Positions 5,426 through 57,844 of a stretch of DNA of 64,000 bases are shown in pieces. The DNA comes from Galaxea fascicularis. Taxonomy: Eukaryota; Cnidaria; Anthozoa; Scleractinia; Euphylliidae. The stretch covers positions 21,750,640 through 21,814,639 of the forward strand of contig OX419338.1 in the NCBI GenBank assembly GCA_948470475.1, read 5' to 3'. The translations under genes were made by a program, and so were the position numbers. Within the stretch, counting starts at the first letter, position 1; every line of letters begins with the position of its first letter. The notes beneath the pieces were generated by a model. It did no database searches and was not told the origin of the DNA. It saw only the letters and a list, made by a program, of their open reading frames with translations.

Positions 5426-7753
5426 CTAATAAAATATTTTCAAAAATACGCAGGCTAATGTGCTTAAAAGTATAGGGAAACGTCCGGAGTTCAATCCTAA
5501 TCCACCAGATGACATCATGTTCTCAAATCCCATGGCGCTTTGCAGGTCACCTTCTTTCATAACTCGGTCAATATAGTTAGACGCATCATTGTTAGCAGCA
5601 TCACTGTTGGCATCGTCCCTGTCGTCTCCGTCATCGGTGCCATTCTCATTACTATCATCACTGCCATCCTCACCGCTGTCATCGCTGCCATCCTCATCAC
5701 TGCCATCCTCACCGCTGTCATCACTGCCATCCTCACCGCTGTCATCACTGCCATTATCTCCACTGTCATCACTGCCATCATCTCCACTGTCATCACTGCC
5801 ATCATTACCGCTGTCATCACTGCCATCATCTCCACTGTCATCACCGCCATCGTCACCACTCTCATCACCGCCATCTTCAACACCGTCATCGCTGACATCA
5901 TTGCCGCTATCATCACTGCCATCGTCACCGCTGTCATCACTGCCATCGTCACCGCTGTCATCACTGCCATCATCACCACTGTCATCACTGCCATCGTCAC
6001 CGCTGTCATCACTGCCATCATCACCACTGTCATCACTGCCATCGTCACCGCTGTCATCACTGCCATCATCACCGTTGTCATCACTGCTATCATCACCGTT
6101 GTCATCACTGCTATCATCACTGCCTTCATCGCCGCTGTCATTACTACCATCGTCACCGCTGTCATCACTACCATCATCACCGCTGTCATCACCATCATTA
6201 TCACCACTCTCGTCACCGCTGTCACCACTGTCATCATCACCGCTATCTTCTACAGTTTCGTCACCTCCGTCTCCACTTTCACCGCTTTCGCCACCTTTAT
6301 TCAAATAAATTAAAAATAAATATTTTTACTTGTCTGAATTTTTGCCAAAATAGCGAGAAGCCCCTCCCATAAAGTTTCACGGGAATTAAAAGTGCAATCA
6401 GATATGATCGCATTTATTTCGCCGAAATGATCTTGGCTCCACTTTTTCATGCCAACATCAGGGACAAAATAGTGATCCGGTATATAACACAAATTCATAA
6501 TTTACCGTAAGACGTCTTCGTTGCGAGGGACAGATAAAAAATGATGTCCAATTCTAGGCGTGCACAGTGTACTCGCATTAAATGACGTATTTGTGCTGGC
6601 GGTAAACAATTCCCTATTCATGCCTCTTAGCAAGGGATGCGACATTTTTACTCCCAACTTCTTCGAGGGTCACTAGCTAGACTAGGATTAGGAGTAAACA
6701 ATGAAGAACGGAAATATTTTACTAGCACTACCTTCATCAGCACTTCCTGATTCCACACTTTCATTATCATCTTGTCCATTATCTCCTCCTTCGTCAGCCA
6801 GTACGCTTGCAGCATCGTCTTTTGAAACTGTTGATAAATTGTCGCATAATTAGCATGCATAAAGTAAAATATTCGCTTCCATTGGTGGACGTCATACTCA
6901 GGTTCAAGTGAAAGCCCTTTTTGATTGTTCTTTTGACAGCCCCTTGACAACCTTAGGTCAGCAAAATGCCAATCAAAATGCGACAGCTGCATGCGTAAGA
7001 CAAGAGTTAATCACGTGTGGGCGATTCCGCCCCTCTTCTGACAGTTTAAACGAAAGCCCTTTGGAAGTATTAAAAAATGTAACAAAAATATGATGCACAT
7101 AGTATTGGTGTGTCTCGCAGTGCTGTCCAAATTAACACATGTCAGGGGTGCAACACCAATATGTTATATACTTCCTATAAGAGCTACTTAGTTAATTTTA
7201 AGTTCAGTGTGGTAATCAACTGAAACAGGAGCTGTATCATGCATGTCCACAAGGCTCAGAAGTAATTTTTAAACAGATTCATTCTCAGTAGTCATTAAAC
7301 TAATAACCTCTTTGGAAGGGAATTCTTAGGAGATGAGTATCACATTAAATGATTTGAGAACGATTTAGAACACTTTTCGCTTGACCTGTTTACGTTCTTT
7401 TTAACGATAAGAAAGTCGCTTCCCTAGCAACAGAAAACATCAAAGTAGCAATTGGAACACAACTTAAAGAGAACGAAGAACTCTCTGGGTGTAATTCTAA
7501 GATGTTACAAGACTTTTTTCAGTAGTTTAGGATTCTGCATTTGTATCAAAGCGTGTGCCACTGTTTTAAACTCCGTCGGCCCTTGGTTCTGCTTTTAACC
7601 GGTCCGTAAGCCCTTAAATCATTTCGATAACTTCATGCATACCGCGGAGAAAGGATGTAAGTGTTACTCACCAGATTGCATCGGCAGAGGTAAACTCAGG
7701 ATTGATGAGACCAAGGATGTTAGACAAAGAAGAAACAAGGTTTTCGAAGACAT
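5426..7753 (-). CDS. Secreted Asp-rich acidic protein, gene A (2 exons)
   Basis: Exon 1 runs 7753-7672 (82 bp) and exon 2 runs 6294-5426. The donor is CTG|GTGAGT and the acceptor AAAG|GTGGC, phase 1, giving 316 aa. Residues 1-20 form a signal peptide, with SLPLP just after the likely cleavage site. Residues from about 29 to 245 are repeats of the DDSGDDGS type. The C-terminus loses the repeat (IDRVMKEGDLQSAMGF) and ends in small residues followed by FPILLSTLACVFLKIFY, which resembles a GPI-anchor signal or membrane tail. Exon length, phase and signal peptide match genes B and C. The likely class is coral acid-rich/secreted acidic matrix proteins, which bind calcium at the mineralizing surface; this role is inferred. 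The TATA box is at 7833. The antisense ORFs are artefacts of the 12/24-nt repeat. Confidence 0.85.
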
Positions 7754-7832
7754 TTTCTCTTCAAATAGGTCTTAGAAGCTTCCTCTGCGGTCTTCTCGGG
7801 TTAATGATGTTTTCTGTTTCTGCTTTTCGGAG

Positions 7833-7839
7833 TATATAT
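7833..7839 (-). promoter_or_regulatory. TATA box of gene A
   Basis: On the minus strand the sequence reads GGATATATACTCC, about 80 bp before the gene A ATG. The spacing is like that of the TATA box of gene B, which supports the start codon at 7753. The start site itself is not determined. Confidence 0.55.
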
Positions 7840-7840
7840 C

Positions 7841-10800
7841 CTTTTAGGATAGGAAGAGAATATTCGAGCCACTTAAATGTTTGAGATGTTGCTATGTTTG
7901 TTAAAGTAGTCGGAAGAATAATATTGAACATTATTGAGCCCAATTTAGACGCAACAATATTGTGTAGAGAAGTCGTTTCAATTTCTATAAGCCTTCAAAG
8001 TCAATCAAAGCAAAACTTCTTTTATTTGGTTGCCTTAAAGTATCTATTGACATTTTCATTGCCAGCCTAGTCTTTGTTGCCTGAAACGTTTAAAAGATGA
8101 AGCTGTATTCTGTCGTTTCAATACCTTATCCCAAATATTAGAGTTTGAAAAGTTCCTATAGCAACTGTTTTTGCACAATATATGGGGCATTTTTCAAATA
8201 TTCGCTTTCACGTTACCATGGTGTAACAAAATATTTCCATTTTGTGAAGTTTTTTTTTATCTTAAATCGATTTCACCCTCCACGTTGGAAATCCATTATC
8301 GTTTGTGGTCAAAGTGGTGAACCATTTAGAAAATGTTAGTTACCTTTTACTGCTGCACAACCAGAACTGTGGCACTCTAAGCTCTCAAATAAATTCAGCT
8401 TTTCTTTAATTCACAGAACGAGAATTTCCGCTCCTACTTTTGTATCTGGAAGTCGCTTTTCATCCCGCTAACAAATATTTTCGACAGAGCGAGGAAGCTC
8501 AATCTCACCCACGTTCTCTCGCATGATATTACGCAACAACGCAGAAGAACGAGCATATAAAACAGCCTACCTAATGGCAGTTAGAAAATCTTAGCAATAG
8601 CTAAATTTAATCAATCATGGTCACAGAAATGCTTTGAAGTTTATCTTTTTATAAACAATCGCATTTTGTGGTTGTTTTTACGGCAGTGTATCCAAGGGAA
8701 GTAAACAACTTAACATGCAAATTCTGTTGCCACTTCCTTTAATACACCTCTGTTTTTTGTTATGTCGCTAGGTACCACAGTAAAATAAATGGAAACTAAT
8801 TGAAGACGTTAAATTTAAATTAATCCTTACAACCTAAGTGATTTCCATGAGTAAAAATAAATATATTACTTGTTATATTATATAATATATATAACAGAAG
8901 ATTTAAACCGTGCTGCTTCTGAAAACAATATTAAAGCAATAGTGATTTTCCATTCATTTTAATAGTTCAGTATCAAACAGCATTAAGTCGAGCACTTTTT
9001 GATAAGTCTTCAGCTTGAGCAAACTCCTAACGAAGTGTTTTATGCCACTTGCTTTCCCAACATGAAGGGCGGAAGACGGAAATCGAGGGCAACATCCTGA
9101 TCGGACAAACATCCAACCCTGTGGAAAAATGTACGGAACCTAGAGCATGCACCATACGTGTGTAAAAAGGAAAAGAATGAGTATTCCGAGTATCGGGAGG
9201 AACTGGTATCAGAAAGGAATGCTTGAAGTTCTCGGACATAAAACTTAGAATATTTTTGTTTTTATCACTTTTTGCTTGCGCAGTGCATGCTACTGAACTT
9301 AACCGTACCTGAAAGAAGCCCAGAGTCAAACTCAAACCTCATTTTCAAAATTTCAAGTGGCTTGCGCTGCACTTGACCGCTGCGAAGTAAAGGCTTTTTG
9401 CCAACAGACAGAAAAAACAGAACAAAATAGTACTATGGGGTAGACCAAAATCCAAGAGAATGAACTGTCTTACTTAAAAATGTTCCCCTGAGTATCAAAT
9501 GACGTCTACAGTCTACAGTCTTCTTCGCAAAACCAAAAACACATTTGTCAGGTCAGAGAGCCACATTCCATAACCAACATCACATGATTAATCCAAGGAA
9601 ACGCCACAGTGTTTCCAACGTTCTCGAGGGATTGGCCACTCAAATCTATGTCCATGATACTGAAAATCCGTCGCGTTATTTTCAATCGTTCACAGCGTGC
9701 GTCCTTGACCAAAGGACTCAGCATTTTGGTTTTGTCTCCCACGGAGTTTCGGGCTATGTCAATTAGCCCAAAAAAATCATTTCTATAAACTGAAAATTTA
9801 GTTTTCAGCTCTCACTTTCATATATGAAGTTCAACCACAAAGAAAATAACATTACAACCGTACGTTCAGCTGAGCCAGTGTTGTTAAGACACTGAAATTA
9901 GGGTGCATTATTTGGTGTACAAAGATGAACCCCGAACCCTCCCCCCCAATGGCCAACAAGGCAGCTTGTTTATCACGCGCCATCTCTAACATTTTATTCT
10001 TATTTCGGGCCAAACTAGCTCAGTTTCACGACATCAGTTGGTAAAGAAAGATTTTAAGTGGTCCACGGATTACTCACTCGCACCACTTATGCCCGTTCAA
10101 GTATTACTATATTGCGGCTTGGTCAAAAGGAACTAAGTGAGCGTTGGCAGTCATCCTTTGATTTAGAGGGTTTTTTTAGAATGTGCCAAAACGTATAGCT
10201 AACTGTAGTGACCTAGTTTTGGTGTAAGTTGTTTCTCTGCAAAGCACTGACCTTGGTAATATACATGGAAGGTATCCCTTATACAGGCTCCCCAAATATC
10301 GGCAAACAATAAGTGCACCCAAAATATCTAAGCAGTAATCCTTTCATACTCAACAAAGGCTTCGTTCAGTCTAGAGGTTTTAACTAATTACATGTGCAGG
10401 AGTAAGAAAGCTATCTTACTCTTGGACAGTAAAGATATTGCAAATACGTCTTGGCGTTAAAAGTGACTTCAAGCATAGCGGCATTCGCGAAAAGGTATAA
10501 AAATACGAAACTAATAATGAGAAATAAAAACCAAATCAATTCAAAACGACGAAACATGCTCATACTGGAGAGAAAGAAACATTTTATTACGAAATGGTCA
10601 TAATCCAGACCAAAGGCCTCATTGAGTACACGATTAAATATCATTAAAAACGATTACTGTGGAAAAAAATTTTGACATGTCCAGGGCGTATACAAACATA
10701 CATGGCTAATAAAAACATTATTCTACATAAAAAAAGTGTAAAGTACACAAGAAGAAAAGAAGAAATTATTTTTGTGTATATAATTCAAACTTATAATTAT

Positions 10801-10867
10801 CCCGTCCCGCTTGTGAGCATAAATTATTATCAATATCTACATTATAATTAGTTCAGGGATCCAGTAC
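7841..10867. other. No gene recognised
   Basis: This is the upstream flank of gene A on the minus strand. Small ORFs at 9027-9335 (minus) and 9545-9766 (plus) show no known motif and overlap other ORFs. An AT-rich palindromic TATA stretch lies at 8870-8900. Nothing here can be assigned. Confidence 0.4.
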
Positions 10868-11764
10868 CAACAACAACAACAACAATACTTATTATTTGAC
10901 AATGAATCCATATTCCCCTGGCTCCGCACATAGCAGTGCTAATAGAGGCGGGCCAGGATAATCAGTAAAAGAAAGGGAAAATACACACAATCAAAACTAC
11001 AAATAAATAAATAGATGGTAAATACGAAGACAGATTAAGTCTACAGAAACAACTATGTAATTAATTCAAGTTGGCAACGCATTATGTTGTGAGAGGTGAA
11101 TAAATAAGACAAAATGGGTAAGGTAGCGAGACAAAGGTGATAGCTACTAAGAGTATTTTCTAACTTTTGAAATTATCGATTCTAAGTCTTCGTAGGAGTC
11201 TTCAGGTTCTAATATATTGAACTAGATCGTCCGAATTTCCCTTTTAAAGATGAGTTTTGGTTGTGTTCGGAGCTTGGATGGTATCTCATTCCACAGTTTT
11301 GCACCAATTCTTGAAAACGATTTACGTTCAATTTCAAGATTTGAGTTTTTAATATAAAAGTTGTTGGAAGCTGAAGATCGCGTATTATATGAATGAGTTT
11401 TTGCGGTAGGGATGAACAAATCCTTCAATTGTGAAGGGATAACATCATTATTTACATTATGCATTGTCTCAGCTAGCAATTTATAATACACAAAGTGAAT
11501 AGGTAAAGTATTTGCATGAAGGAACAAAGGAAGGGCGTGATCACACCTGTCAGCGAATTTTATGAAACGGAGAGTACGTTTTTGGAGGATCAAAAGCTTA
11601 TTTAATTGAGTTTTGCCAGCTTGTCCCCATGCAATTAAGCCGTATCGTAAGTAAGGAACAACAAGGCAGTTGTATATACTAACAAGAGTATGGAAGGGAA
11701 CAAAATGCCTTATCTTAGACAATAATCCAATGGTTTTGCTAAGTTTCAATATTACAGAGGGCAA
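10868..11764 (-). mobile_element. 5'-truncated CR1/L2/jockey-type LINE
   Basis: The minus strand 11764-11222 encodes about 180 residues typical of the C-terminus that follows the RT in non-LTR elements: LVSIYNCLVVPYLRYGLIAWG, LLILQKRTLRFI and a final GAKLWNEIPSKL block. A stop precedes the homology, so the RT itself is missing (5' truncation). The 3' UTR ends in a TTG microsatellite (CAA repeats on plus, 10868-10885), as in CR1/L2-like elements. The reading frame over the fragment is intact, so the insertion is not very old. Confidence 0.8.
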
Positions 11765-12129
11765 GATTTCCGCAGAGCCCTAACATTAATTATGCATTGA
11801 GTTATTGTTCAATGACAACAATGGTGTTAACAATAGAATACCTCTGAGACTAGTACTCTTTGTTTTTAAAGTCCAGATTTTTTTCTAAGCGTTTTTTGAA
11901 ATAGGGTAAATTTGGGGCGTTTTGGCTTTGGAAAACGAAAACGTGAAGTCATTTTAGGATGACCTACTTAAAAGGCTTTATAAGGAAGATGCATTAAAAG
12001 AAAGTGACTAATTTGGGATCGCTAAAATTACATTTGCCCAAAAGTGACTAAGATGGGGTCTAGAATTGGAATCAGAATAGAATATAATGGGCTAGGGTTC
12101 TGAGAGGCCAGTGGCACATACCCAGAAAA

Positions 12130-26450: not shown

Positions 26451-26457
26451 TATAAAT
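26451..26457 (+). promoter_or_regulatory. TATA box of gene B
   Basis: CCTATAAATTGCGGA, 77 bp before the ATG at 26534. Gene C has the near-identical CGTATAAATTGCAGA, so TATAAATTGC is conserved between the two promoters. A start site about 30 bp downstream would leave a 5' UTR of about 50 nt. Confidence 0.7.
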
Positions 26458-26533: not shown

Positions 26534-29500
26534 ATGGCTTCTAGAATATTGCTTTTTCTTTGTCTTGTTGCTCTGTTGAGACCACTTTGGAGTTTGCCTC
26601 TGCCATTATCAGATGGTAAGATTTAACTTCTTTAACATTTGCGAACTTTCTTCTTCAATAATTGCCCGATATCGAATTAAGGGCAACGGTTTTTTTCTCG
26701 AAAGTTCAACTGATTAATATTCTAAACGTGAGAAGGAACTTATCACTTTGATTTGTTGACTGTTAATTGTAATTTAGCGTGAACATTGTTGTAGTTTAGC
26801 ATTACTATATAAGTACTGGTATTTTCTTTCCCTTCAGCGTCACTTATAGGATTCAAAACAATCTATCTCTTCCTTTCAAACGTCCGAGTCGTTTAGGACA
26901 GGGGATACGCCACTGTTACTTCACTTTTGGATCAGTCTGCATTGTTCCAATGATATGCAACTCTTTCCATGTCCGATAATTTTCCTAGTGTTATTTGAAT
27001 GGCTTAGAAGATCACTTACTCCAGTCGTTACGTATTTATGACAGCTTTCATCCCGGTTACAGGAATTATTGAACTGGTATCATACCATCTTTCGCAGCTT
27101 GTAATTAGAGTACTTTAACCAGAACTATAGCGTCTTTGTTTGCCTCGGAGCAGTTTCACTATTTGCCAGAACACGGTGCTATACAATGCAAAGTTTAAGA
27201 ACCTTAACGTTTCGCCAATACGTGTGGTTAGGAATATTGTTCCAGAGTTGATTCCTCAGTTTGACTTTTTTGTTCAGGTTCTAACTATTGTGCAGCAATA
27301 AAACAGTTACTCCACTCAAGGTTGCTGCAGACCCCGTACCAAACAAAGCTTTACGGGCCACGTTTGCCATTTACATTTGATATCCATTGCGCCCCTGTCG
27401 AACAATTCCTAAATGCAGATAAATGATATTAGGACATCCCTTTGCAACCAGGTACATTCTGTAGTATCGAGGTTAAGGCTGAGTTCACACTTGGTGCCCG
27501 GACACGATTCCGGAGTACGGTACTCAATGGGCACTAATGTGAACACACTCTTTTTTCAAGTACCCATGCCAGAATTTGCGCTCGGAACCAGTACCTGAGT
27601 ATAAGGTCGAGACCTTGTATTAAAGAAATAAAGTGGGCGCCGGTTTCCTGTACACATAATCCACCCATTTTCATTTTTTTCGGGACACGCTGTGAGCGAC
27701 GTATGGATTCTTCTTGATAAATTTTATATGTATGTTCACAATTTCGTTCGGGGAAAAACGACTGATTTTCACAGCACGAAAAAGCAACTTATTTTCCTGT
27801 AAAGCCAACGTAATGTTACCGTAATTCCTTACTTTAAGTAAATTAACGCAACTGTCCTAAAATGTAAACTTGAACTTTACGCTCCTTTACGTTGCAACGT
27901 AAGTCCTAATAAGTGTCTCCCTTTACGGAACTTTAATGTTACGTAAAGCTGTGTTATATTTACAGATTTACACTGGTTTTACACAGTCTAAAGTTTGCCT
28001 TTAAAAAGCTTTACAGAACTCCATAAAGCTGTTAATGGTCCCATCTACCGCGGGTTACTGTTGAGTAAAGCTGCTGTAATGAAGCCATTTTTTCGTTTTC
28101 ACGTGATTACGAAAATTTATCTAGCTCATGGCGAAATGCGCGTTCCCGCCGTAAAGCTCGCTCGCAGAACAAAATGGCTGCCCCTATATGACTTTGAATT
28201 TGTGTTAAAATAGGAGATCTTCATCAATATGTCTGTTCTCCTAAGTTATACCTTAGGAGGCTTTTAGGGCTGAAGATTCCCTCGTGAATCCGGCCTCAGG
28301 ATAAGGACATTCCTGGTTACTAACCTACCCCGCTATCTTTCAATTACTGCTTAATAGGGAAAGACAATACGAAAGGCGGGGACGATAAAGGAGATGACAG
28401 TGGTGATGGCGATGACAGTGTTAGTGACACTGCTGATGACGGCGGTCGTGATAGTGGTGATGACAGCGGTGACGATAATGAGAAAGATGACGACAAAAAT
28501 GATGACAGTGGTGATGATAGCAGTGATGAAGGGGTTGATGACAGTGGTGATGACAAAAAAGACGACAAAGATGAAGACGGTGGTGAAGACAGAGGTGACG
28601 ACAGTGGTAATGGCAGTGATGATGACAAGAATGACGACAGTGGTGATGGCAAACATGACGACAAAGATGGTGACAGTGGTGATGACGAAGATGGCGAGAG
28701 TGGTGATAACAAAGATGGCAAGAGTAGTGATGACAGTGGTGATGACAAAGATGATGACAAGGATTATGACAGTAGTGGTGACAAAGATGACGACAAAGAT
28801 GGAGATAGTGGTGATGACAGTGGTGACGAGAGTGGTGATGACAAATATGATGACAGTGGTGATGACAGTGTTGATGACAAAGATGAAAACAAGGATGAAG
28901 ACCGTGGTGATGACAGTAGTGACGACATTGGTGATGACAGCGGTGATGACAGTGGTGACGATAGTGGTGATGGCGGTGGTGATGACAAAGAAGAAAAGAG
29001 TAGTGATGACAGTGTTGGTGACAGTGGTGATGACAGCGGTGCCGACAGTGGTGACGATAGTGGTGATGACAAAGAAGAAAAGAGTAGTGATGACAGTGTT
29101 GGTGACAGTGGTGATGACAGGGGTGACGACAGTGGTGACGATAGTGGTGATGGCAGTGGTGATGACAATGATGAAAAGAGTAGTGATGACAGTGGTGATG
29201 ATAAAGAAGATGACAAGGATGATGACAGTGGTGATGACGAAGATGACGACAGTGGTGATGAGAGCGGTGACGACAATGGTAATGATAGTGGTGATGACAA
29301 AGATGACAGGAGTAGTGATGACAGTGGTGATGATAAAGAAGAAAAGAGTAGTGATGACAGTGTTGGTGACAGTGGTGATGACAGCGGTGACGACAGTGGT
29401 GATGGCAGTGGTGATGACAAAGACGAAAAGAGTAGTGATGACAGCGGTGACGATAGAGGTGATGGTAGTGGTGATGACAATGATGAAAAGAGTAGTGATG

Positions 29501-30849
29501 ACAGTGGTGATGATAAAGATGATGACAAGTATGATGACAGTGTTGATGACGACAGTGGTGATGAGAGCGGTGACGACAATGGTAATGATAGTGGTGATGA
29601 CAAAGATGACAGGAGTAGTGATGACAGTGGTGATGATAAAGATGATGACAAGGCTGATGACAGTGGTGATGACAGAGATGACGATAGTGGTGATGACAAC
29701 GGTGACGACAGTGGTAATGATAGTGGTGATGACAGTGGTGGTGACAAAGATGACGACAAAGATGACGACAGTGGTGATGACAGCGGTGACGAAAGTGGTG
29801 ATGACAAATATGGCGACAGTGGTGATGACAGTGTTGATGACAACAAGGATGAAGACAGTGGTGATGACAGCAGTGACAACAGTGATGATGACAGTGGTGA
29901 TAACGGTGGCGATGACAAAGATGACGAGAATGATGATGACGGTGGCTATGACAAAGGTGACGTCAAGGATGATGACAGTGGCGATGACAGTGGTGATGAC
30001 AAAGATGGGTCCAGTGGTGATCAAAGGGGTGATAACAGTGGTGAGGACAGTGGTAATGACAGAGGTGATGACACAGATGGGGACAGCAGTGATGACAGTG
30101 GTGACGACAAAGATAACGACAAATATGACGACAAGGATGGTGACAGTGGTGATGACAAAAATGATGGCAAAGATGGTGACAGTGGTGATTACAGCGGTGA
30201 GGACAGTGGTGATCGCAAAGCTGACGACAAAGATGGGGACAGTGGCAATGACGGTGATCACAAAGATGACGATAAAGATGGGGACAGTGGTGATCAAAAT
30301 GTTAATGACACTGGCGACAACAGTGGTGATGACGAAGATGACGACAAAGATGGGAACAGTGGTGACGACAGTGGTGACGACAAGGATGATGACAAAGATC
30401 ATAACGGTGGTGATGAGAGGCATGGGGATAGTGGTGATGAAAGCGGTGATGACAGCGGTGAGGACAGTGGTAATGACAAAGAGGACGGCACAGATGGGGA
30501 CAGCGGTGATGACAGTGGTGATGACAAAGATGATGACAAAGGTAATGATAGTGGTGATGATAGTGGTGATGACAGTGGCGATAATAGTGGTGATAGCATT
30601 GGCGATAACAGTGGTGATGAAAAAGAAGATTTCAGCGCCGATGACAGTGGTGACGACAGTGGTGATGACAGAGGTGATAATAGTGGAGGCGAGAGTGGTG
30701 ACATTGACGATCAAGTTTTATTCCTGAATAGTGCCGAAGGAGATCACTTGATTTCATCTGGTGTATCAACATTTAATGGACAATGTGCTAGCGTGTGTAT
30801 GAGTATAATAACATGCTTTTTGTGCAGCTTAATATATTGCGTCATTTAA
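26534..30849 (+). CDS. Secreted Asp-rich acidic protein, gene B (2 exons)
   Basis: Exon 1 is 26534-26615 (82 bp), donor GATG|GTAAGA. Exon 2 is 28358-30849, acceptor TTAATAG|GGAAAG after a pyrimidine-rich run. The join is phase 1 and the frame is open to TAA at 30847, giving 857 aa; I read every codon. Residues 1-20 are a signal peptide followed by SLPLP. About 780 residues follow of DDSGDD, DDKDDDK and SSDDS repeats; 89 of the first 200 repeat residues counted are Asp. Seven RGD tripeptides occur. The tail leaves the repeat (VLFLNSAEGDHLISSG) and ends in a Cys-rich hydrophobic segment, consistent with a GPI signal or membrane anchor. Exon 2 has no in-frame ATG before 30799, so only splicing gives a start. 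Likely an extracellular calcium-binding matrix protein of the coral acid-rich class (inferred). A possible poly(A) signal is at 31308. Confidence 0.88.
28381..30700 (+). repeat. Coding minisatellite of gene B
   Basis: Imperfect GATGACAGTGGT-type 12-nt units are organised into higher-order repeats. An 84-bp unit (28981 and 29065, GATGACAAAGAAGAAAAGAG) and a 312-bp unit (29161 and 29473, GATGACAATGATGAAAAGAG) are both multiples of three and keep the frame. Serine codons are almost all AGT/AGC, as expected from expansion by slippage or unequal exchange. Confidence 0.9.
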
Positions 30850-35431: not shown

Positions 35432-36330
35432 CTATTTCAAGTAGAGTGTTTGCACATAATCAGAGAATCTGACGGGAGGTCTGATCTGCCTTTGCGAACG
35501 CGTCAAAGGAATGTTCTCTTTAGCTTCTGCTGGTTTTGGTTGCACCACAGGTGTATCTGAAACACCTTTTCTTCCAGATTCGTGTTGACCATTCATGAGA
35601 TGTTTAGGAACAACTTTAAACTGTGACGAATTTCTTGTGATAATCTGAGATCCATTTCGCACTGTAACCATTGAACCTTTCTTCTCTTCCAGAACAAAAG
35701 GTTTTGGATTGTACGGTGTACTCAGTTTATTCTGTTTGGGTTGTTTCATAAGCACAATGTTTCCAGGAGTGATTTGTGTCTCTTGGGCACTTGTCTTGTG
35801 GTCAGCGTAAATCTTCATCTTCTGTTTCTGTAACGCATCTCTTTCAGAGAAGTTTGCTGATGAATCTTGTCTGAATTGGATGAGTTCGGGGACTGTGGTC
35901 TTCAGTTTTCGTTTGTTCAAAGCCTCACTTGGTGACACGTTGGTGGTGGAATGAGGTGTGGCACGGTACTGACGTAAGAACTTGTATAGCTCTTGTTTCC
36001 AATTTTTGCCTTCCAAATGGGCTATGCGAATGTTTTTTTCAAGAGTCTGGACTAAACGTTCTACTTCACCATTGGCTTTGAGCCAGTAAGGTGTGATCCT
36101 TCTGCGGTTGAATCCTAAGAAGTCAGCAAAAATTTTAAACTCTGACCCGTTAAATGGAGGACCATTGTCACTCTTGAGAACGTCGGGTATGCCTTGTCTT
36201 GCAAATATGGCATCTAACTTAGGGATCACAGCTCTGGCTGAAACTGAAGTGAGCATTTCTACTTCTACCACCATTATGTAATCATCCGATGGAAATGGTC
36301 CGGCAAAGTCAACTGCAACTTCGCTTTACG
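35432..36330 (-). pseudogene. Gypsy integrase, one internal stop
   Basis: VDFAGPF (first catalytic Asp, near 36309), KSDNGPPF (second Asp) and ANGEVERL (Glu) give the DD-E triad. They are followed by NWKQELYKFLRQYRATPHST and a C-terminal region with GNIVLMKQPKQNKL. The catalytic part is intact. Just upstream a TAA replaces the expected Trp in the TAP-x-SEVAVDF motif, and the gene is cut off from its RT. The frame ends at 35432. Confidence 0.85.
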
Positions 36331-38451: not shown

Positions 38452-39025
38452 TCAGTGTTTTTTTCTGTACTCTCCTTGCTCGTGAGCAGTCAAGGATTTC
38501 TTTTTTGAAGGAGCATCAGACAGCCAAATAGCCTTTCCAAAATCGATGAGCATTGGATGGTACATATTGTTTACCACTGTAAGAAGAATGTTGGCACCCT
38601 TTATATCTCTATGGAAAAGCCTTTTTGACTCTAAACGTTCCAAAGCTTCACACAGTTTTAGTACAATCTTTCCTGCAGAGGACTTTGAAAGAGACATGGA
38701 TTTACTGGGAAGGGCAAAGTACAAAGTATAAGGAGAATTGCCAAAACCATAAAAATAGGACACAAGAAAGATCAGGTTTGTAGTGAAATTTATACCAAAC
38801 ACATGAGGTATTGATACATCAGAGCATTGTGCTATAGTGGTGGCTTCATTTCTGACATCCTGAGATGCCAGCCACTGGAATGCCCTTGCAATACTTCTTT
38901 ACACACTGACCAAATACCCGTTGTCCAAGTTGAAACCTCTATTTCATGGCCCTCGTTATGTTTTGGAGACATCAAGTGATGCCACTCAATTTCAGAAAGA
39001 TTAGAAGAAACTCCTCCTGAGCCTC
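38452..39025 (-). pseudogene. Protein kinase catalytic-domain pseudogene
   Basis: Minus-strand pieces in order: FQLGQRVFGQ (glycine-loop-like), GIPVA (start of the VAVK motif, the Lys is lost), SQDVRNEATTIAQCSDVSIP (alpha-C region), then the long frame with KIVLKLCEALERLESKRLFH, RDIKGANILL (catalytic loop HRDxKxxN) and MLIDFGKAIWL (DFG). At least two frameshifts break the N-lobe, and the C-lobe ends after about 25 residues. The catalytic loop is intact but the invariant Lys is gone. Host origin is likely; the kinase subfamily is unknown. Confidence 0.72.
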
Positions 39026-44600: not shown

Positions 44601-45540
44601 TTACGACATATCTGCTTCTAACTCTTCTAATGCTCTCTGCTGTCCTTGTTCCCATTTCCAGGGTGTGTCTTGTCTTGTCAGCAGACGAAGTGGGGCTGTG
44701 ATCGTGGCATAGTTCGGAATGAAACGTGGTATATAGTGAGTTATTCCAAGCAAAGACTTGACTTCATTGGGATTCTTCGGAGGACTTGCTGTTTGGATTG
44801 CCTCGACCTTCAAAGGATCTGGTCTGATGCCACTGGAGCTGAATATGTGCCCATAAAACTTGATTTCGGTTTTGGAGACCTCACACTTGTCCTCGTTGAG
44901 ACAGAGGTTTTTTCCTTGGAGTCGTTGAAGAACACCACGAAGGTTCATGTCATGCTCTTCTTGGCTTTTCCCGAACACAATAATGTCATTGGAAATGTTC
45001 TTACATCCCTGTAAGCCGGTAAGGAGCTCTCTGATTCCTTCTTGGAAAATTTCGGATGCTGCATTGATTCCGAAAGGCACGCTTGTGTCGTCGTAAGCCA
45101 ATATGGGTGCTGAAAGTGGTGACATTGCGACTTTCCGGTGCAAGTTCAAGTTGGTGATACCCTGAAGACAGATCTAATGTGCTAAAATGGGTTGCTCCAT
45201 TGAAATCAGCAATAAGGTCATCTATGGTTGGCATTAGGTGTTTTTCTCTCTTGATTGCTTTTTGTACTTCACGCATATCAACACAGATTCGGACAGCTCC
45301 TGATTTCTTTGGTACGACGACAATGGGACTAATCCATGGAGTGGGACCATCAACTTGTTCGATGATATCAAGCTCTTCTAACCTTTCAAGCTCTTTCTCC
45401 ACGGCATCTCGAACATGAAAAGGAATTCTACGGTGTGGTTGTTGTCTGGGGATCACCTCAGGATCGACATGTAACTTAATCATCTTGATGGGTACCTTTA
45501 CTACACCTCCAAACAAAGACTTGAACTCTTCCTTGAGGCA
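44601..45540 (-). pseudogene. Gypsy reverse transcriptase, inactive
   Basis: Two frames. 45516-45001 carries LEELDIIEQVDGPTPWISPI, VVVPKKSGAVRICVDMRE and HFSTLDLSSGYHQLELAPES. 45149-44601 carries GINAASEIFQ, then NISNDIIVFG, where the YxDD catalytic box has become N-I-S-N-D, then KFYGHIFSSSGIRPDP and a thumb with SLLGITHYIPRFIPNY. The loss of catalytic Asp and the frameshift make it inactive. It ends at the edge of the inserted segment. Confidence 0.88.
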
Positions 45541-46190
45541 GTCAAGGCTGTTCTCTCTCTTCTCAGCTCAGTTCTTCTCTGCTCAGGTGGCAGTGTTAAC
45601 AGACATCACAATCAAGCCAAGCTTCTGTGCAGTGTTGTAGCTGAGGAGATTTCCAGTCGTACCCTTCACAACATGCAACTGAGTAGAAGTGGTGACGGTA
45701 TTAGATTTTATAGATGCTGTGAAAGTTCTTAGCACAGGGAGAGGGTTTCCTGATCCATACGAATAAATCTTGTTCTAAGAAGGCTGTAGCAGTTGGTTAC
45801 CAGAATTGCTCATTCTTCGAAATGTTGATTCATCTAAAAGGTTGACAGATGCAGCTGTATCAATCATCATCTCCACAAAAGTTCCATTTATTTCTACTCG
45901 ACACATTGGAGGCTTCTTGCTCTCTAGATAATTTACTCTGTATGCGCACTCGTATTCTTCATCGGACTGTTGGCGAGGGTTCACATACGCCAGGGTTCGC
46001 GGTTTTGATCTGCAAACATGAGCAAAATGACCAACTTTACCACAAGCTCTGCATGATTTACCACGAGCTGGACATGGATTCCTATGATGAGCATAGCCAC
46101 CACAATTACCGCATTTGTCGGGAGCTCTAGTTTGCTTGTTTGTGGAATGACAATGGCGTGACTGTGACTGGGTTGAACGTGACGGCAAGG
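45541..46190 (-). pseudogene. Gypsy nucleocapsid and protease
   Basis: Frame 46188-45775 has two intact CCHC zinc knuckles ([14 protein letters not shown] and [14 protein letters not shown]), then [20 protein letters not shown] with the retropepsin D-T-A active site. The frame stops at 45775; further protease-to-RT linker is readable with interruptions down to 45541. Confidence 0.82.
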
Positions 46191-46727
46191 AGTTTGTGCT
46201 TCGCGGCCGGGAACAACGATCGCTTCCCGTGCTCTTGATTCTGTGAACATCGAGTCGGTTTTTTCCACTTGCTTGGCTTGTTTTTCGCTTAGTTCTAACG
46301 CTCGTCCCAACTTTAAGAGGTTTTCTAGCGAAAGGTGTTCACGAAGCGCACGGCGTCGTAGAGAACTTGAAGTGCACTTGAGAATTTTGTGCTCCTTGAT
46401 TTCTTTATTGATGTCGGAAAATTTACAGGTTTTCGCAAGCTGCCGCAGTCGAGTATGAAAGCTATCCAGCGACTCATCATCGTTTTGTTTTGACTGTCGA
46501 AAATTGAAGACTTCATAGGCTATGTTCGTCTGTGGCGAGAAGTACTCGTTAAGTTTGGCGACCGCGGTGTCAAAATCGTTGTCGTCTCCAGTGTCGGGCA
46601 AAGTGTCAAACATTTTATCGACCCCTTGACCAGCATAATGAAGTAAAAGCGCTCGCTTTCGTTTGGGAGGTGTGATATTCATTTCAGTGAGCAGGCGCTC
46701 TAGTCTGCCAAGGACCTGCGTTGCCAT
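46190..46727 (-). pseudogene. Gypsy gag (capsid region)
   Basis: ATG at 46727 starts MATQVLGRLERLLTEMNI, followed by KRKRALLLHYAGQGVDKMFD, FRQSKQNDDESLDSFHTRLR and LAKTCKF, the usual capsid order of Gypsy gag proteins. The frame drifts near 46190, where the zinc-knuckle region continues in another frame; this may be mutation or a former frameshift site. Confidence 0.82.
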
Positions 46728-46868
46728 CTGCATGAACGTCAAAGACTGGAAAATTTGGTAACTATTCTGAGAAAAACGCCGTCGGATCTCCACGACAATC
46801 GTTTGGGGGCTACTAATGCATAACTTAAGTGGTTTAACTGTGAAGATTGCTAAATCCTCGTCGCCAGA

Positions 46869-46976
46869 TGTGGTGTTGAGCCAACTGAAAGTAAACACAA
46901 CGCCATGCTTGTGTTCCAGTGATTTTACTAGCTCACATGTGTTTGAATACATGCCCATAATTGACTGTAAACTACA
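46869..46976 (-). repeat. 5' LTR of the Gypsy element
   Basis: 108 bp, TGTGGTGT at the left and ACTACA at the right on plus. Aligns with 35164-35279 except for three small indels near its right end. Next to it (46868 leftward) is the primer-site-like TGGCGACGAGGA on minus. Confidence 0.78.
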
Positions 46977-49178
46977 AGATAGCAACGGCCAGCCAATCTA
47001 TTTTGCTGCTCTTTAAAACATCGAAACACTGATTGCATTCTCACCGGTTGAACCAAAAAAATAAAAATAAAATGAAAAAAAAACTGAGGAGTAGTCAAGG
47101 TAGGCGGCGAATGTTGTTTACGGTCTTGATCAATGAGGCGTACGCGTGACATTTCCTTGACAGCTTTGTGACAACTTTCTGTCAGATTTTGAGACATGCA
47201 CATGCAATTGATGGGCTTTTTTCCTTGAGTATGGGTTTCTGTCGTCAATTAAAGGGACAGTGTCCCGATTCTGCGCAGGCGCGAGATGCCATCTGTTATG
47301 TCTCAAAGAAACAATAGAACTGTCAAATTGAGGTGGCAAGATTTTCCTCCTGCGTGTTTTGCGTGTATTTGCATAAATCAAGTTTGGTCAAGATCAGCAA
47401 AAATACTTACAATGCGCAGTAGATAATAAGGAATTGAAGTCTTTTTTAATAAATTAAGTTCTAAAACGGAAATTCTTAAGAAAACATTTTCTCATATCAA
47501 AGGCTTTGGTTGTCCATCAAGGAATGGCAAAAAGACATCTTGAAGGCAGAAATTGCAAAAATTTTACTTACGTTAACCGCTGATATACTAATATGCAAAT
47601 TAGTCGATGTCAACACAACTTCGCTTTCTAGAGGCAACTATGAATTACCGAAGACAAAATAAAAAAAAAAAAGGTTTTTTCAGCCAAAATTTTTATTGGA
47701 ATCATCAATTATTTTAATGTTAGGAGAGAAAAGCTTTCGATTTCCTTGCGAGCGTGGACACAAACACGCTGTCTTCACCCATGCTTCGCCTCTGTTGAAA
47801 GCCATCACCTTATCGTAAATAACACGACTTTCTAAGCCATAAACAACCGTTACACTATTTCAGCTCAAATGGTCAGTCAAGCAGTCTCAAAAAGAAAATC
47901 GAAATTCAAAAACACGATTTACCGTCTGCGATTCGACTTCAATCTTTTCCATGTATCGTGGATCTCTTTCTTTACATATATTTTTCTGCGCTTTGAATTC
48001 CACGACGTGCCTCTTCTGAGCCAAGTTTTCGGAGCTTTTCTGAAAGCTACCGGGAGAAAGTAGCCTTCAACTAGCGTCATAGCGCTTTCCTCCTCGGGAA
48101 GGTCCGTCCAACGGCATTGAAAATAATCCCAAAAGAAAATGATTTCAAAAACAATTCAAACTAAATCGGAGCGAAATATAATCTAACAATAAAATTTCAA
48201 TCGTTTGAGCAAATGGAGATGTAAAATAACAGCGATAGAGACGGATTTCACGCCAGAAGCACCATCGCTCGCATCGTTTGATTTCGCGACAGGATGAACA
48301 AAAATCAAAATTTTGAGCGTGCACACCATCGGGATACTGTTCGTTTAAAGGCTCTTAAAGAAAGAACGTGACAGCTGTACCAATAAAAAGTCATAACACT
48401 GTTCTCTTGTTGTCTTCAGCTTTTATTTTATTTTCCCGCCAAAACACGCGGCTTACCCACATCTCAAGTGGCAGTTTTCACCTTTGCTTATATCGAGCGG
48501 GTTGACGGACATACTTACGGACGTACGGTGATGTCATAACCAAAATTTCTCGGATCGATGGGTTACCATATTTTCTTACCAATGTGGCTCCGTGCGCGCG
48601 CCGAACTCTTATGGAGTACAACGTTAATGTTATGATTTGCTAAAAGAGAGTCTCAAAGTTTGACCGAAATAACTCCTAATCGCCAAGTGAAACAGAGTTT
48701 TCTTGCATTTGGATATAGCACACGGGCCACTAAAGCAGGTTAATGTTAACTAATTCTGAGGAAACAAGGACCAGTGCGTTCTGCCGACATACCACTGGGC
48801 TCTGAGATCTACAATATATCTAAAATAGACAGCCAGACAGTCAAGGCACGAGCCAGTGAACATGAACAGGTGCCTCAAATCAGCGCCTTGAAGTCACTGT
48901 TAAATTAGAGATATCCTCAAGTTCAAATTTGCATTTGAATTTGTCCCTTTCAGGCAAGTATTCCAATACAGACGGAAATTAAAGAATGGTACAAGTCTTT
49001 AAACAACTTATATACTGCATAGCCAATAGTCAGATAAATACTGTATCCTTGGGGAATTTTGTTCGCATGAAGCAAGCAAGAGTACAGTGGTAAAGTTGCA
49101 TCTGAGAGAACATGGGGCAGGCCAGGGATGGAAAAATGCCGTAAAAAACAGTTGCTTTTTAGTCCGAAAAGCGTGTCA
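46977..49178. other. No gene recognised
   Basis: AT-rich with A-runs (47660). Small ORFs (46928-47381 minus, 47869-48063 plus) have no recognisable domains. No RNA gene seen. Confidence 0.4.
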
Positions 49179-51824: not shown

Positions 51825-51829
51825 AGGTG

Positions 51830-52257
51830 CTTAAATAGTTCGTTACTTGCTTTAAGTGACTGACGCAAAGAATCGAGAAAGAAACATTTAAAGTTTTTTA
51901 TGTAAACTTAAAAAAATAGAAAATTATTCTTTACTGCATCATTAAGATATTTAAGCCGGCTTCCATTTCATCCTGTGGTGCTTGTTATGTTGTCAAAGGT
52001 CCCTCTAGGTTTTGGCTCACTCCAGGCGGTTTTTTAAATTATGAAGTGTGACTCTTTCAATGTAATCCTTCCAATGGTGTCGTCTCAAGTACAATGCGGG
52101 ATAAGTTGGCATTCATCGCCCAGGATGTGGCGACGTATCCGGGAATTTTGTGCGTGCTCCGCGCGAACCTCAAACTCCATTAAAGATGTGAGACAGACAA
52201 AAAAGGGAAAATGGGCCCGAACTGCCTACCAGTGCGCGCACGTTGGGTGCGTGGCAA
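51830..52257. other. No gene recognised
   Basis: Between the HTH fragment and a TIR element. Nothing assigned. Confidence 0.35.
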
Positions 52258-52644
52258 AGCCCCGGCTAAAACTATCAAACATTTTCATCCAATGCAACAT
52301 AGTGTTGAACGACCATGTTTGACCGTTTAGCCGCCTCTCTTAACATTGCATTTGAATGGCTTCCAATGTTTGATCTCATTTAACATTTTGCTTCACGAGC
52401 AAATGTTTGACCGTTTAGCCCCTCTTCAGACAAAGCAAGCTCGAGCGGGAAAAAGCAACCAATCAGAAAGTGCATCTGCCAACTTGCATGTCATAATTCC
52501 AGCGGTAATACACAGAAAGCGTAATGTGGGCTAACTTTGTTCGATGTTTGATCAAACATTGTTTGCTCTTTAAGCCACCCCAACTGAGTTGTGTGCAACA
52601 AAGACGATGTTGGATGAAAAATGTTTGATCTTTCAGCCGGGGCT
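52258..52644. mobile_element. 387-bp TIR element
   Basis: Left end AGCCCCGGCTAAAACTATCA and right end TGATCTTTCAGCCGGGGCT are inverted with a few mismatches over about 40 bp, including the CAAACATTTTCATCCAA / TTGGATGAAAAATGTTTG part. Flanks are CAA and TAA, close to the 3-bp TWA duplication of PIF/Harbinger elements. Internal GTTTGACCGTTTAGCC occurs twice (52315 and 52405). Confidence 0.7.
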
Positions 52645-52782
52645 TAAACCGCTTTGTTTTGTAAAGTACGAAGGAAAAGAAATTTTGTAAAGTCAAATAA
52701 AAAATACAGACAGCATGAGCGCGGACTTTCAATAAGAGGAACAACGCATTTTAAAATTTCACTGAGACAACGCGTATAGATG

Positions 52783-52787
52783 TAAAA

Positions 52788-52857
<70 letters not shown>
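52783..52857. repeat. Poly(A) plus (AT)n tract
   Basis: An A-run of about 22 bp followed by about 25 AT units. Confidence 0.95.
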
Positions 52858-52859
<2 letters not shown>

Positions 52860-55800
52860 TGCACACGAATTCGTCAACAAAATCCTTCAGTTGTAAGATC
52901 ACGGCCCGCCTTAATAGAGCGCTATTGTTAACTATTTCACCTCTGATGGCACCTCTAGATTACTTCACACATTCTAGCGTTTGATTGACAGGAGTTGGAA
53001 TTTGCGTAGAGAGTCAGGTATTCCTAAAGCTGAGTCTGTCAGCCAAATACAGCCGCAAGTTGTTATGCTACCCTTTGAAAAATTGGCCACTGTACATGTC
53101 ACAAAAGACAATATAGCATTCCCGGCGGTATTATTCGCTAGGTGGACAAGACCCCGATACTGTGACCACTTAAAAACAATAAGATTCAGCAGTACGTTTT
53201 GCGGACAGTCCGTGCATTGTTCTCAGTATGAGGTGGAGGTTATAATTATCAATATTATTGGAAATAGCAACATTCGTTATTTACCTGCTATACATGCAGG
53301 GAACAAAGGAGAATCCATTACTAAAATATAAAATGCGGTGTTGTCGAGTGTTGCTTATGTAAGGCGATTTGGAATACTTTTATCACGATGAGGCTCTTAA
53401 CTCCCAGTTGCAAGATTGTGCAAAACTTTGTCAACTAGCAATGGCTGTACAATTTTACCGAGGTCTTGATCTCATAAAAGCCAACATACTATTACAAATA
53501 AACGAATCGTGATATCGTACAGATTCAACGAACTCAGTAAAAACTATACAATTTGACCACAAATTTGGGGTCAAATAAGTCCAAACTTCAGGCAACCTCA
53601 GCAAAAATTCTTGTCCTCAAAAGGAGGGAAGCCTGCTTCGCTCCTTTTAATCCGGGACAATACATTGTTTCAGCAGCGTATTGTTTCATGCATGAGCCTT
53701 GTGTTCTTGATGTGGGAATTAGTAAAACACAGTCATATATAACCCTTGAAAATTGAGCTCCACTCCAGCTGCTCGAGAATGTGCTGCAAAAGTGTTCAAT
53801 AAAGTGAAAATTAAGTTCAGAAAGTGTAAGAGAATTTTGTACGGGAAATTGCACCACCTAATGCAATTTGTGATTAATAGGTGTGAATGAGTGATTGCGT
53901 ATGCCCTTAGGCAAAACTTTGAGTATTTATTACAAATTGTCTTAGAAGGTGGCGCACTCTTCTTTAAGTATATTGGACATCATTACGCAAAACGATTCAA
54001 GAGAATCGCAAATACAGTTTGTATGCATTAAAATTTGCCACGTCTGGCTGAAATCATGCTCTGGTACTGTTATGTGAACTACAATTTGGTAAATAACTGG
54101 ACTGCTCTCGGTCAATTACAATTTAGAATTTTGTTGAGTGAACTTTTAGGCCATGAATCAACGCACTCTTAGCAAAGATTAAGAGTCCGACCTCCTGGTT
54201 CTATGTCGCAGCATACAGCCTGTAAAACTGTCAATTCTCAGTTAAATAAACACAGTTATCAAACCGTTCCAAAACGTTCGGCCTGTACTTTTCTGAGGTT
54301 CTAGTTTCATATTTACAGCTGTACTTAGGCCTAGCATTTTGGCTCTGCCTAATCGGAAACCCAGAATTCTTTCACCTCACAATAGCATTGAACATAGTCA
54401 ACTTGAGGTTTTTAAGGACTGGAAAAGTCTCCTTTTTTAGCTCATGGATAAACGCTCGATTGCAAATATGATATTGTTTAGAAAGGCTATATCCCTTGGC
54501 TTAAACGATCAGTATAACACTTTGTCAACATTTGACAAAAACACAAGGACCACAAGCATGCAAATATTTTTCTCTGTGAGGATATAATTTGGTCTGACTT
54601 GTAAGCAGCTATAACAGCTAATCTGTTCGAACAACAAAATATTTGGAAAGTCAAGTTAATTGTAGCACAAAGCATAAATAGATGGATTCAATATCTCACC
54701 TTACAGAGCAAAAGTTTTGTGCCGGACCCCCAATCGCTCAAAAACATTGTCTGTAAAGCGTCACTTATGTCCAGAAATGCACCTAACTGGGACCTTGGGT
54801 ATTTCATATTACACACAATTAATTGTAATTTCCATATGTCTTCATGTTTGACAGAATTGCCTGCTTTATGGTGAGGATTAGAGCTAGGAAACACTTTGTG
54901 ATGTCTATCATAAAGAGCATGAATCTCATTAGTGGGCATTTCTGGACATATCTCTAAAGCGTGACTAATTTCCCTCAGGGCTTTCACAAAATATGTTATT
55001 ATCTGGATGTTATCTCGCATTCAGAATAGTCGGAAATTTTATTACGACCAAAAACGTTTATAAAACTAACTTGAAATGAGCCGTCGACCAGTAAGAAACT
55101 TTAACTTGCCTGTTACACTTCTTAACAAAGCGATCACATTTGAATATTATTTTTATAGTCCGTGTACAAATTTGCATATTTGTGCTCCATTGGCGGTTCA
55201 AATTACTTACGTCTGTCAATTTCGTCTAATGTAATGCTTCTGGCGCCTATCAATCAACTGCGTAATTTTACGGAAAATATTAGCGCGTAAACGGTTCTTT
55301 TACCAAGAGATGTATCTGGAAAGGATGTTCTCCCACAAAACACAAACGAATGTACAGGTTTCTTGCACATATCTTTTTAGAAAATAAAGTTGTTGTAAAT
55401 TCAAAGTATTGTTATGCTCCCCATCCATGAGCTGGCTCATAGGAGGCTTTGATTTCTAAAAGAAAACCCTTTATTTCTACTTTCAAATCTTACAACATTA
55501 TATCCAGTAAATAAGACCAAGTCCACGATCAGAAAAAAAAACACATTATTATGATAAAATTGTAGATTTACAATGAACCCTCAAAGACCGTGTTTATAAC
55601 TAACTCTTTACAGACAACTGAAATTCGTTTTAAGGAAAAATAGACACAAAAACGTTAATATTCCACTAAAACCCAAATGACAAAAATGGTCCTTGTTGTT
55701 GCTTAAAAATTAACTGATGAAATAACTTTATTCGTGTACGTAAGATCCAATTTGGGTATCAGTGCCCGGTCATCTGTGACTTGCAAATTAATTTGAGCTT

Positions 55801-55955
55801 ACTTTCATTCTGTCAAATAAACCCTCATCAAATGGAAAAAACGACACTACAATCAGATTGGAAATAATGGTATTAATGGGAGTTGTCAATCAAGATAGCT
55901 AGTAGTGGTTTTAGTTGTTTCCAAATCGTTGGAAGTGGAATTGAGCTTACTGTAA
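52858..55955. other. No gene recognised
   Basis: Frames at 52981-53331 (plus) and 54688-55020 (minus) are over 100 codons but show no known motif, signal peptide or clear splice context. They are left unassigned. Confidence 0.4.
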
Positions 55956-56249
55956 AGCCTGGTTTTCACTAGCGACGCAAGCATAAGCGCAAACATAACA
56001 GCTCTTATTTCACCGTGAAAACGACCTCAAAGCAAGCATAAACACAAGCGCAAGCACAAGCACAAGAATCAAAATTTTTCCTTTTCTTGTGCTTGCGCTT
56101 GTGCTTGTGTCCGTAGTGAAAACCAGACTATACAAAATAAGTGGGTTCGTTCCCCTTATGTTTCTGCTTATGCTTATGTTGCTGCTGTTTTCACTTGCGC
56201 TTGTGATCATGTTTGCGCTTATGCTTGCGTCGCTAGTGAAAACCAGGCT
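55956..56249. mobile_element. 294-bp TIR element with TAA target duplication
   Basis: The ends are perfect inverted repeats for 41 bp, starting AGCCTGGTTTTCACTAGCGA. TAA flanks both sides (55953-55955 and 56250-56252), as for PIF/Harbinger-type MITEs. The interior is made of CTTGTGCTT / AAGCACAAG-type inverted segments. It lies about 110 bp past the stop of gene C, probably in its 3' UTR or flank. Confidence 0.88.
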
Positions 56250-56362
56250 TAAGGTCTTTTAACTACGTCCCACCAAACAGTATTTTAGTTGGCTTTCTCT
56301 TCCACTGTTCTGTTTTGGCAACCACACTAACTGTACGGCTTTCTTGTAATATAAGAGGGAAG

Positions 56363-56462
56363 CTATTTCCTGTCATTGTCGTCGTCGTCATCATCACCAC
56401 CATCATCATCGTCGTGGTCATCATCGTCATCATTATTGTCATCACCATCCTTGTCGTCGTCG

Positions 56463-56493
<31 letters not shown>

Positions 56494-57844
56494 TGTCATC
56501 ATTGTTGTCATCATCATTGTCATCATCATTGTCATCATCATCCTTCTTGTCGTCATCATTGTCATCATCGTCATCATCATCATCGTCGTCATCGTCGTCG
56601 TCGTCGCTGTCGTCGCCGTCGTCGTCGCCGTCATCATCATCTTGGCGATCGTCGTCATCATCTCTTTTATCATCACGCCACTCATCATGCCAGTCGTAGT
56701 CGTCTTTGGTAATGAAACGAGGCAAATATATTTAGTGGATTTAAAGCGTTATACGATTAGTAGATTTTACATTGGGCCAGAGCGTTCATTACAGTGGACC
56801 TAATCTAAAAATATTTCTTTCGTTAAAAGAATCTTTGCACCTGATTGGAACGCGTTGCAACTTTGTATTTCCTTTTTTATTTTTTTTTATTTTTACCAAA
56901 TCTTGCCTTTTTATAGGCTTCAAAACTTACGAAAAGCTTAGCATCATTTGTTTCACGACCGAGTCAACAGAAGGCACGTGGGTCTATTCCTGATTTGTAG
57001 TCACAATCTACTTTGTAAACATAGACTTAATGCGATGCAAATCAGTTTGTGGCGTCAGACTTGCAGGAATAGATCCACACCCCTTCTGAAGGCTAAGGTC
57101 GTGAAAAAATGATGCTATAAAAAGTTCAGATTTCGTAAAAAAGGAAAGCAAACCCGCAAAGCGTTTCGAACAGGTGCAAAGATTTTTTTGGCGAAAAATA
57201 TTTTGGGTTTAGGTGCACTTCAAATACTTTGTTAATCTTTATAGGTCCAAGGCTACTCTAAAACACATGACGATAGTTTTTCCTTTTAAGATTGGAATAA
57301 ATTTACAAAAACCGCGTCAAGTAAAATGAACAGATTTCATTATGTTAAACTGAGAGGATGACCACAAGAAATACCATTCAACAGAGATACCATGGCCCAG
57401 TCGCACAAAGCAGGATTAAGCTAAACCAAAGTTGTTGTACACCTCAAATGCGATTTGATTAAGTACCAATCGATAAATATGTTGTCTTAGACGTTTTGAA
57501 CAAACAACATTTACGTATGCCACAAAAAAAAAAAAAACATTTCAACAAAATAATTAAATGAAAACTTTCGGTTGCTCTGAGTCTCCTTGATTATGGTTGT
57601 TCAACGTTCGAACCTCCGAGCCCTGAGTGGTAAGTATCATTCAAAAATGCTAACATTCTAGCAATGCATATTTTTGTGCTGTTAACTGAGTTAAGCAATA
57701 ATTTAATTCGCTCTTACAGCACAAAGGCTCGTTAAATGATACAACTCATAAAGTTATCTCACCATCAGGCAATGGCAAAGGCAAACTCCAGATTGGTGTT
57801 ATCAACGCAACAAGACAAAGAACAAGCAAGAACTTCGAAGCCAT
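56363..57844 (-). CDS. Secreted poly-Asp protein, gene C (2 exons)
   Basis: Exon 1 is 57844-57763 (82 bp), donor GATG|GTGAGA. Exon 2 is 56703-56363, acceptor ACCAAAG|ACGAC, phase 1, giving 140 aa. Residues 1-20 are a signal peptide followed by SLPLP, aligned without gaps to genes A and B. Exon 1 matches that of gene B at 65 of 82 bases. The mature start (DDYDWHDEWRDDKR) carries Trp, Tyr and Arg. Then come about 100 residues of nearly pure Asp with scattered Asn, Gly, Lys and His, ending in NDRK and a stop. It has no hydrophobic tail, so it should be freely secreted, unlike A and B. Strong calcium binding and a matrix role are inferred. The exon 2 sequence is a (GAY)n repeat, so length and frame may vary between alleles. 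The plus-strand ORFs here are shadows. Confidence 0.78.

Follow-up and report, generated by a model that had tools for sequence, protein, structure and literature searches.

Asp-rich secreted proteins are among the most abundant proteins of coral skeletons, and in Acropora digitifera the highest spectral counts were reported for Adi-SAP2 and Adi-SAARP1 (PMC4890752). For three acidic skeletal proteins of A. millepora, GPI sites are predicted and a release from the calcifying epithelium is assumed (PMC4043741), and acid-rich secreted proteins of Stylophora are enriched in polyp calicoblasts (PMC8162421). The SAPs were first reported from Acropora only and later also from Dendrophylliidae and Agariciidae (PMC6824150), and a SAP2-like peptide, 40% identical, has been described from Heliopora (PMC5976621). 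The CARPs/SAARPs are secreted, acidic skeletal proteins grown by duplication (PMC8382919, PMC6824150) which, as described, keep a conserved non-acidic part (PMC6824150, PMC4890752) with relatives in non-calcifiers, while Amgalaxin-like 1 and 2 have a signal peptide with an acidic domain after it (PMC2726143) and run on into Cys-rich repeats. In vertebrates, the SCPP genes form a tandem cluster of secreted genes, with acidic members, which grew by duplication and serves mineralised tissue (PMC13367325). Calcification genes are often tandem in coral genomes (PMC10236652), and the laminin-G/EGF and USOMP-1 skeletal genes of A. digitifera are tandem too (PMC4890752), which lowers the novelty of a tandem arrangement as such.

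A single locus that goes on producing acidic proteins would help explain why the skeletal sets differ among coral species, and would provide a defined joint set of candidates for the acidic proteins that start or shape aragonite. The locus considered here is from Galaxea fascicularis. The window, i.e. the whole stretch of 64,000 nucleotides that was analysed (C4:21750640-21814639, contig OX419338.1), had been said in a preliminary description to contain a cluster of three genes (A, B and C) for secreted Asp-rich proteins that by composition looked to be of the CARP/SAP class. In the titles and abstracts searched no description of the cluster was found, although an earlier one in full texts or supplements is possible; a literature search with the letters of the repeats gave a sole match, which by its title concerns maize imaging.

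Gene models in the window

The exons and promoter elements of the three genes are as follows.

7753-7672, minus strand: gene A exon 1, 82 bp, signal peptide MSSKTLFLLCLTSLVSSILSLPLPMQS, phase-1 donor
6827-6732, minus strand: gene A likely exon 2, 96 bp, phase 1 on both sides, proper borders
6294-5426, minus strand: gene A exon 3, Asp-Ser-Gly repeats, hydrophobic C-terminal tail, stop
7833-7838, minus strand: gene A TATA-like box (TATATA), 85 bp before the ATG
26534-26615, plus strand: gene B exon 1, 82 bp, signal peptide MASRILLFLCLVALLRPLWSLPLPLSD, phase-1 donor
28358-30849, plus strand: gene B exon 2, long Asp/Ser/Gly/Lys repeats, hydrophobic C-terminal tail, stop
26451-26457, plus strand: gene B TATA box (TATAAAT), 83 bp before the ATG
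57844-57763, minus strand: gene C exon 1, 82 bp, signal peptide MASKFLLVLCLVALITPIWSLPLPLPD, phase-1 donor
56703-56363, minus strand: gene C exon 2, near-pure poly-Asp, without tail, stop
57900-57894, minus strand: gene C TATA box (TATAAAT), 56 bp before the ATG

The 82-bp signal-peptide exon said to be common to A, B and C is borne out by ungapped comparison (51/82 identical bases for A-B, 56/82 for A-C and 65/82 for B-C), the top 82-mer match to any of the three elsewhere in the window, on both strands, being 43/82. Each of the three first exons stops at a GT donor, and the signal peptides they encode are similar and all finish in SLPLP. This feature and the phase-1 intron can both be seen in the rebuilt exons. 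The predicted products have 348 (A), 857 (B) and 140 (C) residues, with Asp making up 33%, 40% and 69%, respectively, of the sequence past residue 20. An Asp-rich second exon, as previously described, is present in B and C, whereas in A the Asp-rich exon is the third, owing to the likely 96-bp exon. Gene A most likely has three exons. Dropping the 96-bp exon leaves the frame intact, and a two-exon gene is also allowed; the exon has a partial counterpart in the neighbouring copy A2 (see below), where it is broken by an insertion and the model uses a shorter exon.

Other features of the window include an ORF on the minus strand (38452-38898) with a protein kinase domain match (PF00069, E 6.9e-12), and minus-strand ORFs at 35432-36325, 44601-46997 and 11222-11779 which by eye resemble pieces of retrotransposons. 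A Pfam scan of the ORFs at 35432-36325 and 45981-46997 gave no match.

Extent of the array

The signal peptides of genes C and G were used as queries against the whole genome (416.6-Mb assembly, 170 contigs, E<=10). The search with C gave 8 matches (8 candidates, 8 scored) and the one with G gave 4 (4 candidates, 4 scored). Pooled, they mark 10 distinct places, all 10 on C4 between 21602149 and 21808483 (206 kb). The E-values of the weaker matches reach 0.5, and neither search picked up F, K or L, so distant copies elsewhere are possible. A profile made of 8 signal peptides was then run over 324 kb (85,267 of it N) and two further pieces, and found 13 signal exons at E<=2.1e-4, with the next-ranked hit at 0.037. 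Eight of these 13 exons had gone into the profile; the ones new to it are A2, G, J, K and L, A2 being almost identical to A. In one more DNA piece the profile gave nothing below E 0.27, and no additional signal exon was found in the readable part of the 130 kb to the right of the window. The exons are listed below in window-style coordinates (C4 position minus 21750639), all as located by the profile.

-148490, plus strand: signal exon I
-140276, plus strand: signal exon H
-90479, plus strand: signal exon G
-83975, plus strand: signal exon J
-52450, plus strand: signal exon L
-47778, plus strand: signal exon K
-39790, minus strand: signal exon E
-35283, minus strand: signal exon F
-23812, minus strand: signal exon D
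-17728, minus strand: signal exon A2
7753, minus strand: signal exon A (in the window)
26534, plus strand: signal exon B (in the window)
57844, minus strand: signal exon C (in the window)

The DNA read starts at C4:21600649, and within the span 35 kb in five stretches are N and 8.7 kb (C4:21611944-21620639) are unread, so 13 is a lower bound. The relatedness of A, B and C stands, but the cluster has more members than the three first described and extends leftwards for about 148 kb beyond the window. Growth by duplication of secreted acidic genes at one locus, which had been proposed from the window, is strongly supported beyond it by an array of at least 13 signal exons.

Two further comparisons concern the relatedness of the members. 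Of the 78 possible pairs of signal peptides, 74 beat their shuffled versions at p<0.01; the signal peptide of F is the weakest, being significant in 8 of its 12 pairs. Twelve of the 13 genes (all but I) have a TATA-like box at a distance of 56-97 bp from the ATG, on its upstream side, and in 8 of 13 it is the strict TATAAAT. In equivalent windows ahead of 8146 ATGs from the region, the proportions are 7.0% and 0.66%, respectively.

Predicted products

Twelve of the 13 genes could be completed by hand from splice borders, gene J having no identified second exon. All 16 introns across the 12 models are of phase 1. The predicted products are acidic in all 12 cases (computed pI 4.05 in 11 and 4.33 in F), although borders were picked with acidity in view, so that acidity is no independent test of single borders. 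They fall into an Asp-Ser-Gly repeat type (A, A2, B and I), a near-pure Asp type (C, D and H), a type mixing Asp and Glu (E and G) and a Glu-rich repeat type (K and L, the acidic exons of which both open with EVEET), while the product of F is acidic and non-repetitive.

Low-complexity arrays of this kind, with several frames open, raise the question of whether the acidic exons might be artefacts of microsatellites, with trinucleotide and 12-bp repeats being open by chance beside unrelated signal-like exons. The array periods in A and B are indeed mostly multiples of 12 bp. As a control, all AG acceptors of the 324 kb were scored as read in phase 1, and acid-rich stretches of at least 50 residues were counted, which leaves out E (exons too short) as well as H and I (outside the 324 kb). 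Nine of the 13 stretches found sit, in the correct orientation, in genes of the family (A, A2, B, C, D, F, G, K and L), which argues against artefacts; three of the remainder are Arg-Glu simple repeats and one is unassigned. Codons one repeat unit (12 or 24 bases) apart were also compared in A, A2, B, C, D, H, I, K and L. In A, A2, B, C and I, 42-54% of the mismatches fall on third positions, where 33% would be expected, while D, H, K and L have no significant excess, as artefacts would allow; the tests assume independent sites, and their p-values are optimistic. Also speaking against artefacts, in C, D, H and I the longest runs of Asp use both GAT and GAC, and E and F are acidic without simple repeats. 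For exon 2 of F, other sequence sets contain two relatives, which match about two thirds of F at 90% and 61% identity and keep the acidic part and the tail. Taken together, we consider a microsatellite origin extremely improbable.

Tandem small secreted products with one signal exon in common are typical of defence-peptide and toxin families, and the acidic part could in that case be the pro-region of a prepropeptide. Cys is however scarce past residue 20 (none in eight products, one each in F, A2 and A, and five in B), dibasic sites number 0-3 per protein, and inspection of the 12 products revealed no basic or Cys-rich mature part. A Pfam scan of 10 members or exon pieces found a domain in none of them. 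This makes an origin as prepropeptides very unlikely.

That the products are secreted, as first described, agrees with signal-like N-termini in all 13 exons, but requires a qualifier, as 4 of the 12 products (A and B and their two neighbours A2 and F) have a hydrophobic C-terminal stretch. The best 15-residue Kyte-Doolittle mean within their last 30 residues is 2.11-2.43, compared with <=0.06 in the other eight products (C, D, E, G, H, I, K and L). From their sequence, the tails look like GPI signals or membrane anchors.

Two candidates were set aside. The product of B contains 7 RGD against 0.96 in shuffles, but 7 of its 13 Arg are in RGD and 73 of its 132 Ser in SGD, an equal share, so that the motif is explained by Ser-to-Arg changes within the repeat rather than by selection for RGD. 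An acidic ORF on the plus strand of C4 (window-style -15360 to -15183), 2.4 kb upstream of A2 and with a hydrophobic C-terminal end, was not counted as a member because no signal exon was found for it.

Comparison of A and A2

Genes A and A2 are identical in 247/247 bases before the ATG and in 81/82 of exon 1, and 58 of their last 61 residues agree; the tail they share has no other occurrence in the genome at E<=10. When gaps are disregarded, the two genes are 98.5% identical across 8000-7449 (promoter, exon 1 and the first part of intron 1; about -17480 to -18030 in A2, window-style on C4) and 88.8-90.8% identical in the five other reported blocks. This step in sequence identity suggests that the promoter and signal exon have recently undergone gene conversion, constraint being an alternative cause. 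The 24-bp unit of the array in exon 3 of A (5694-6244) is present in 23 copies, against about 4 (by eye) in A2, which makes repeat gain or loss a visible mode of change.

Comparison with known acidic proteins

By composition, and by putative signal length and tail, the nearest coral proteins are SAP1 (B3EWZ0, B3EWZ1) and SAP2 (B3EWZ4) of Acropora, which were compared through their published description. SAP1 is described with a 20-residue signal peptide, a predicted GPI/transmembrane tail and RGD (as in B), and both have Asp-rich repeats with Gly and Ser (PMC4043741). Unlike the SAPs, none of the 12 products contains G-D7-S (SAP1) or S-G-D6-G-D (SAP2), gene I being nearest with one G-D6-S and 11 S-G-D(2-8)-G-D, and membership is for this reason not claimed. 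Such repeats can change quickly, so the absence of the motifs is compatible with common descent. A protein search with the N-terminal part of A yielded 842 candidates, none at E<=10, and one with its tail gave no match.

Of the class assignment made earlier, the CARP part is probably wrong, as a conserved non-acidic part would be expected from the descriptions; none is evident in the cluster products, which are acidic nearly throughout save for the signal and tail, and the 10 pieces scanned lack a Pfam domain. The SAP part is nearer in make-up, short of the motifs. What is common to the CARPs/SAARPs and the cluster is being secreted, acidic and grown by duplication. The order of signal peptide and acidic domain is that of the Amgalaxin-like proteins, but 0 of 12 products run on into Cys-rich repeats. 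The poly-Asp of C and H is like that of a Stylophora peptide of the coral matrix (PMC2726143).

In its layout the locus resembles the vertebrate SCPP cluster, with tandem secreted genes, acidic members and a common signal-peptide exon (here 13 signal exons in 206 kb). The phase-1 introns set it apart from the vertebrate genes, the introns of which are generally described as phase 0 only. A descent from SPARC/SPARCL1 is a further mark of the vertebrate family. We propose that the two clusters are convergent. The coral cluster is built like one of SCPP type and likely works like one, and we file it under none of SAP, CARP/SAARP and SCPP. The parallel with the bone and tooth cluster, if true, would mean that genomes have come independently to a similar organisation for mineralised tissue.

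Proposed role and detectability

The shared signal exon, the phase-1 introns, the TATA-like box in 12 of 13 genes, the Asp- or Glu-rich predictions and their position at one locus are read directly from the sequence. A skeletal role of the predicted products is what we infer from the analogies above, and a part in calcification is the best reading of them. We think it probable that A, B and C belong to one array of at least 13 related signal exons, 12 of which have predicted strongly acidic, secreted or membrane-tethered products whose likely job would be to bind calcium and guide the deposition of aragonite in the skeleton. The array has probably grown by tandem duplication of a small module of promoter, signal exon and acidic exon, the acidic exons then diverging fast through gain and loss of repeats. 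Calicoblastic (skeleton-forming) cells would release these disordered polyanions into the calcifying space; the tailed members (A, A2, B and F) would first be on the cell surface, and those without a tail (C, D, E, G, H, I, K and L) would pass into the matrix, where calcium or amorphous carbonate would be their target.

The sequence holds nothing that points to the skeleton as such, and acidity together with a signal peptide would suit any calcium-rich secretory compartment. The products could then have a non-skeletal job, such as calcium storage or packing in secretory granules or cnidocytes, or a place in mucus/glycocalyx or egg coats. The proteins closest in composition among those described, the coral SAPs, are however skeletal (PMC4890752, PMC4043741), and poly-Asp as in C and H is known from coral skeletal matrix (PMC2726143, citing earlier work). 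We therefore regard a non-skeletal job as rather unlikely, and retain a skeletal one.

Past residue 20, eight of the 12 products (I, H, G, L, K, E, D and A2) contain no predicted tryptic peptide of 7-30 residues, so that proteomes may undercount the products of the cluster. Four such peptides are predicted for A (20% covered), two for C (37%), 45 for B and 10 for F (80% covered each). Standard trypsin proteomics would thus likely see B and F best and overlook most of the others. A wider conjecture, which we put forward tentatively at somewhat less than even chances, is that stony corals have an SCPP-like locus of their own, in which a module of promoter and signal exon was copied at least 13 times and combined with rapidly changing polymers of Asp, Asp-Ser or Glu. 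It would be the source of the lineage's highly acidic skeletal proteins (perhaps including SAP1 and SAP2), largely missed by skeletal proteomics because most products are without usable trypsin sites.

A separate observation in the same genome concerns the GFP family, with 46 exon matches here and none in 14 control genomes, in keeping with an anthozoan and, together with the gene content, probably a stony coral. The 46 matches are on C4, C5, C9, C10 and C12, many of them in local groups, for example at 15.19-15.45 Mb of C10.
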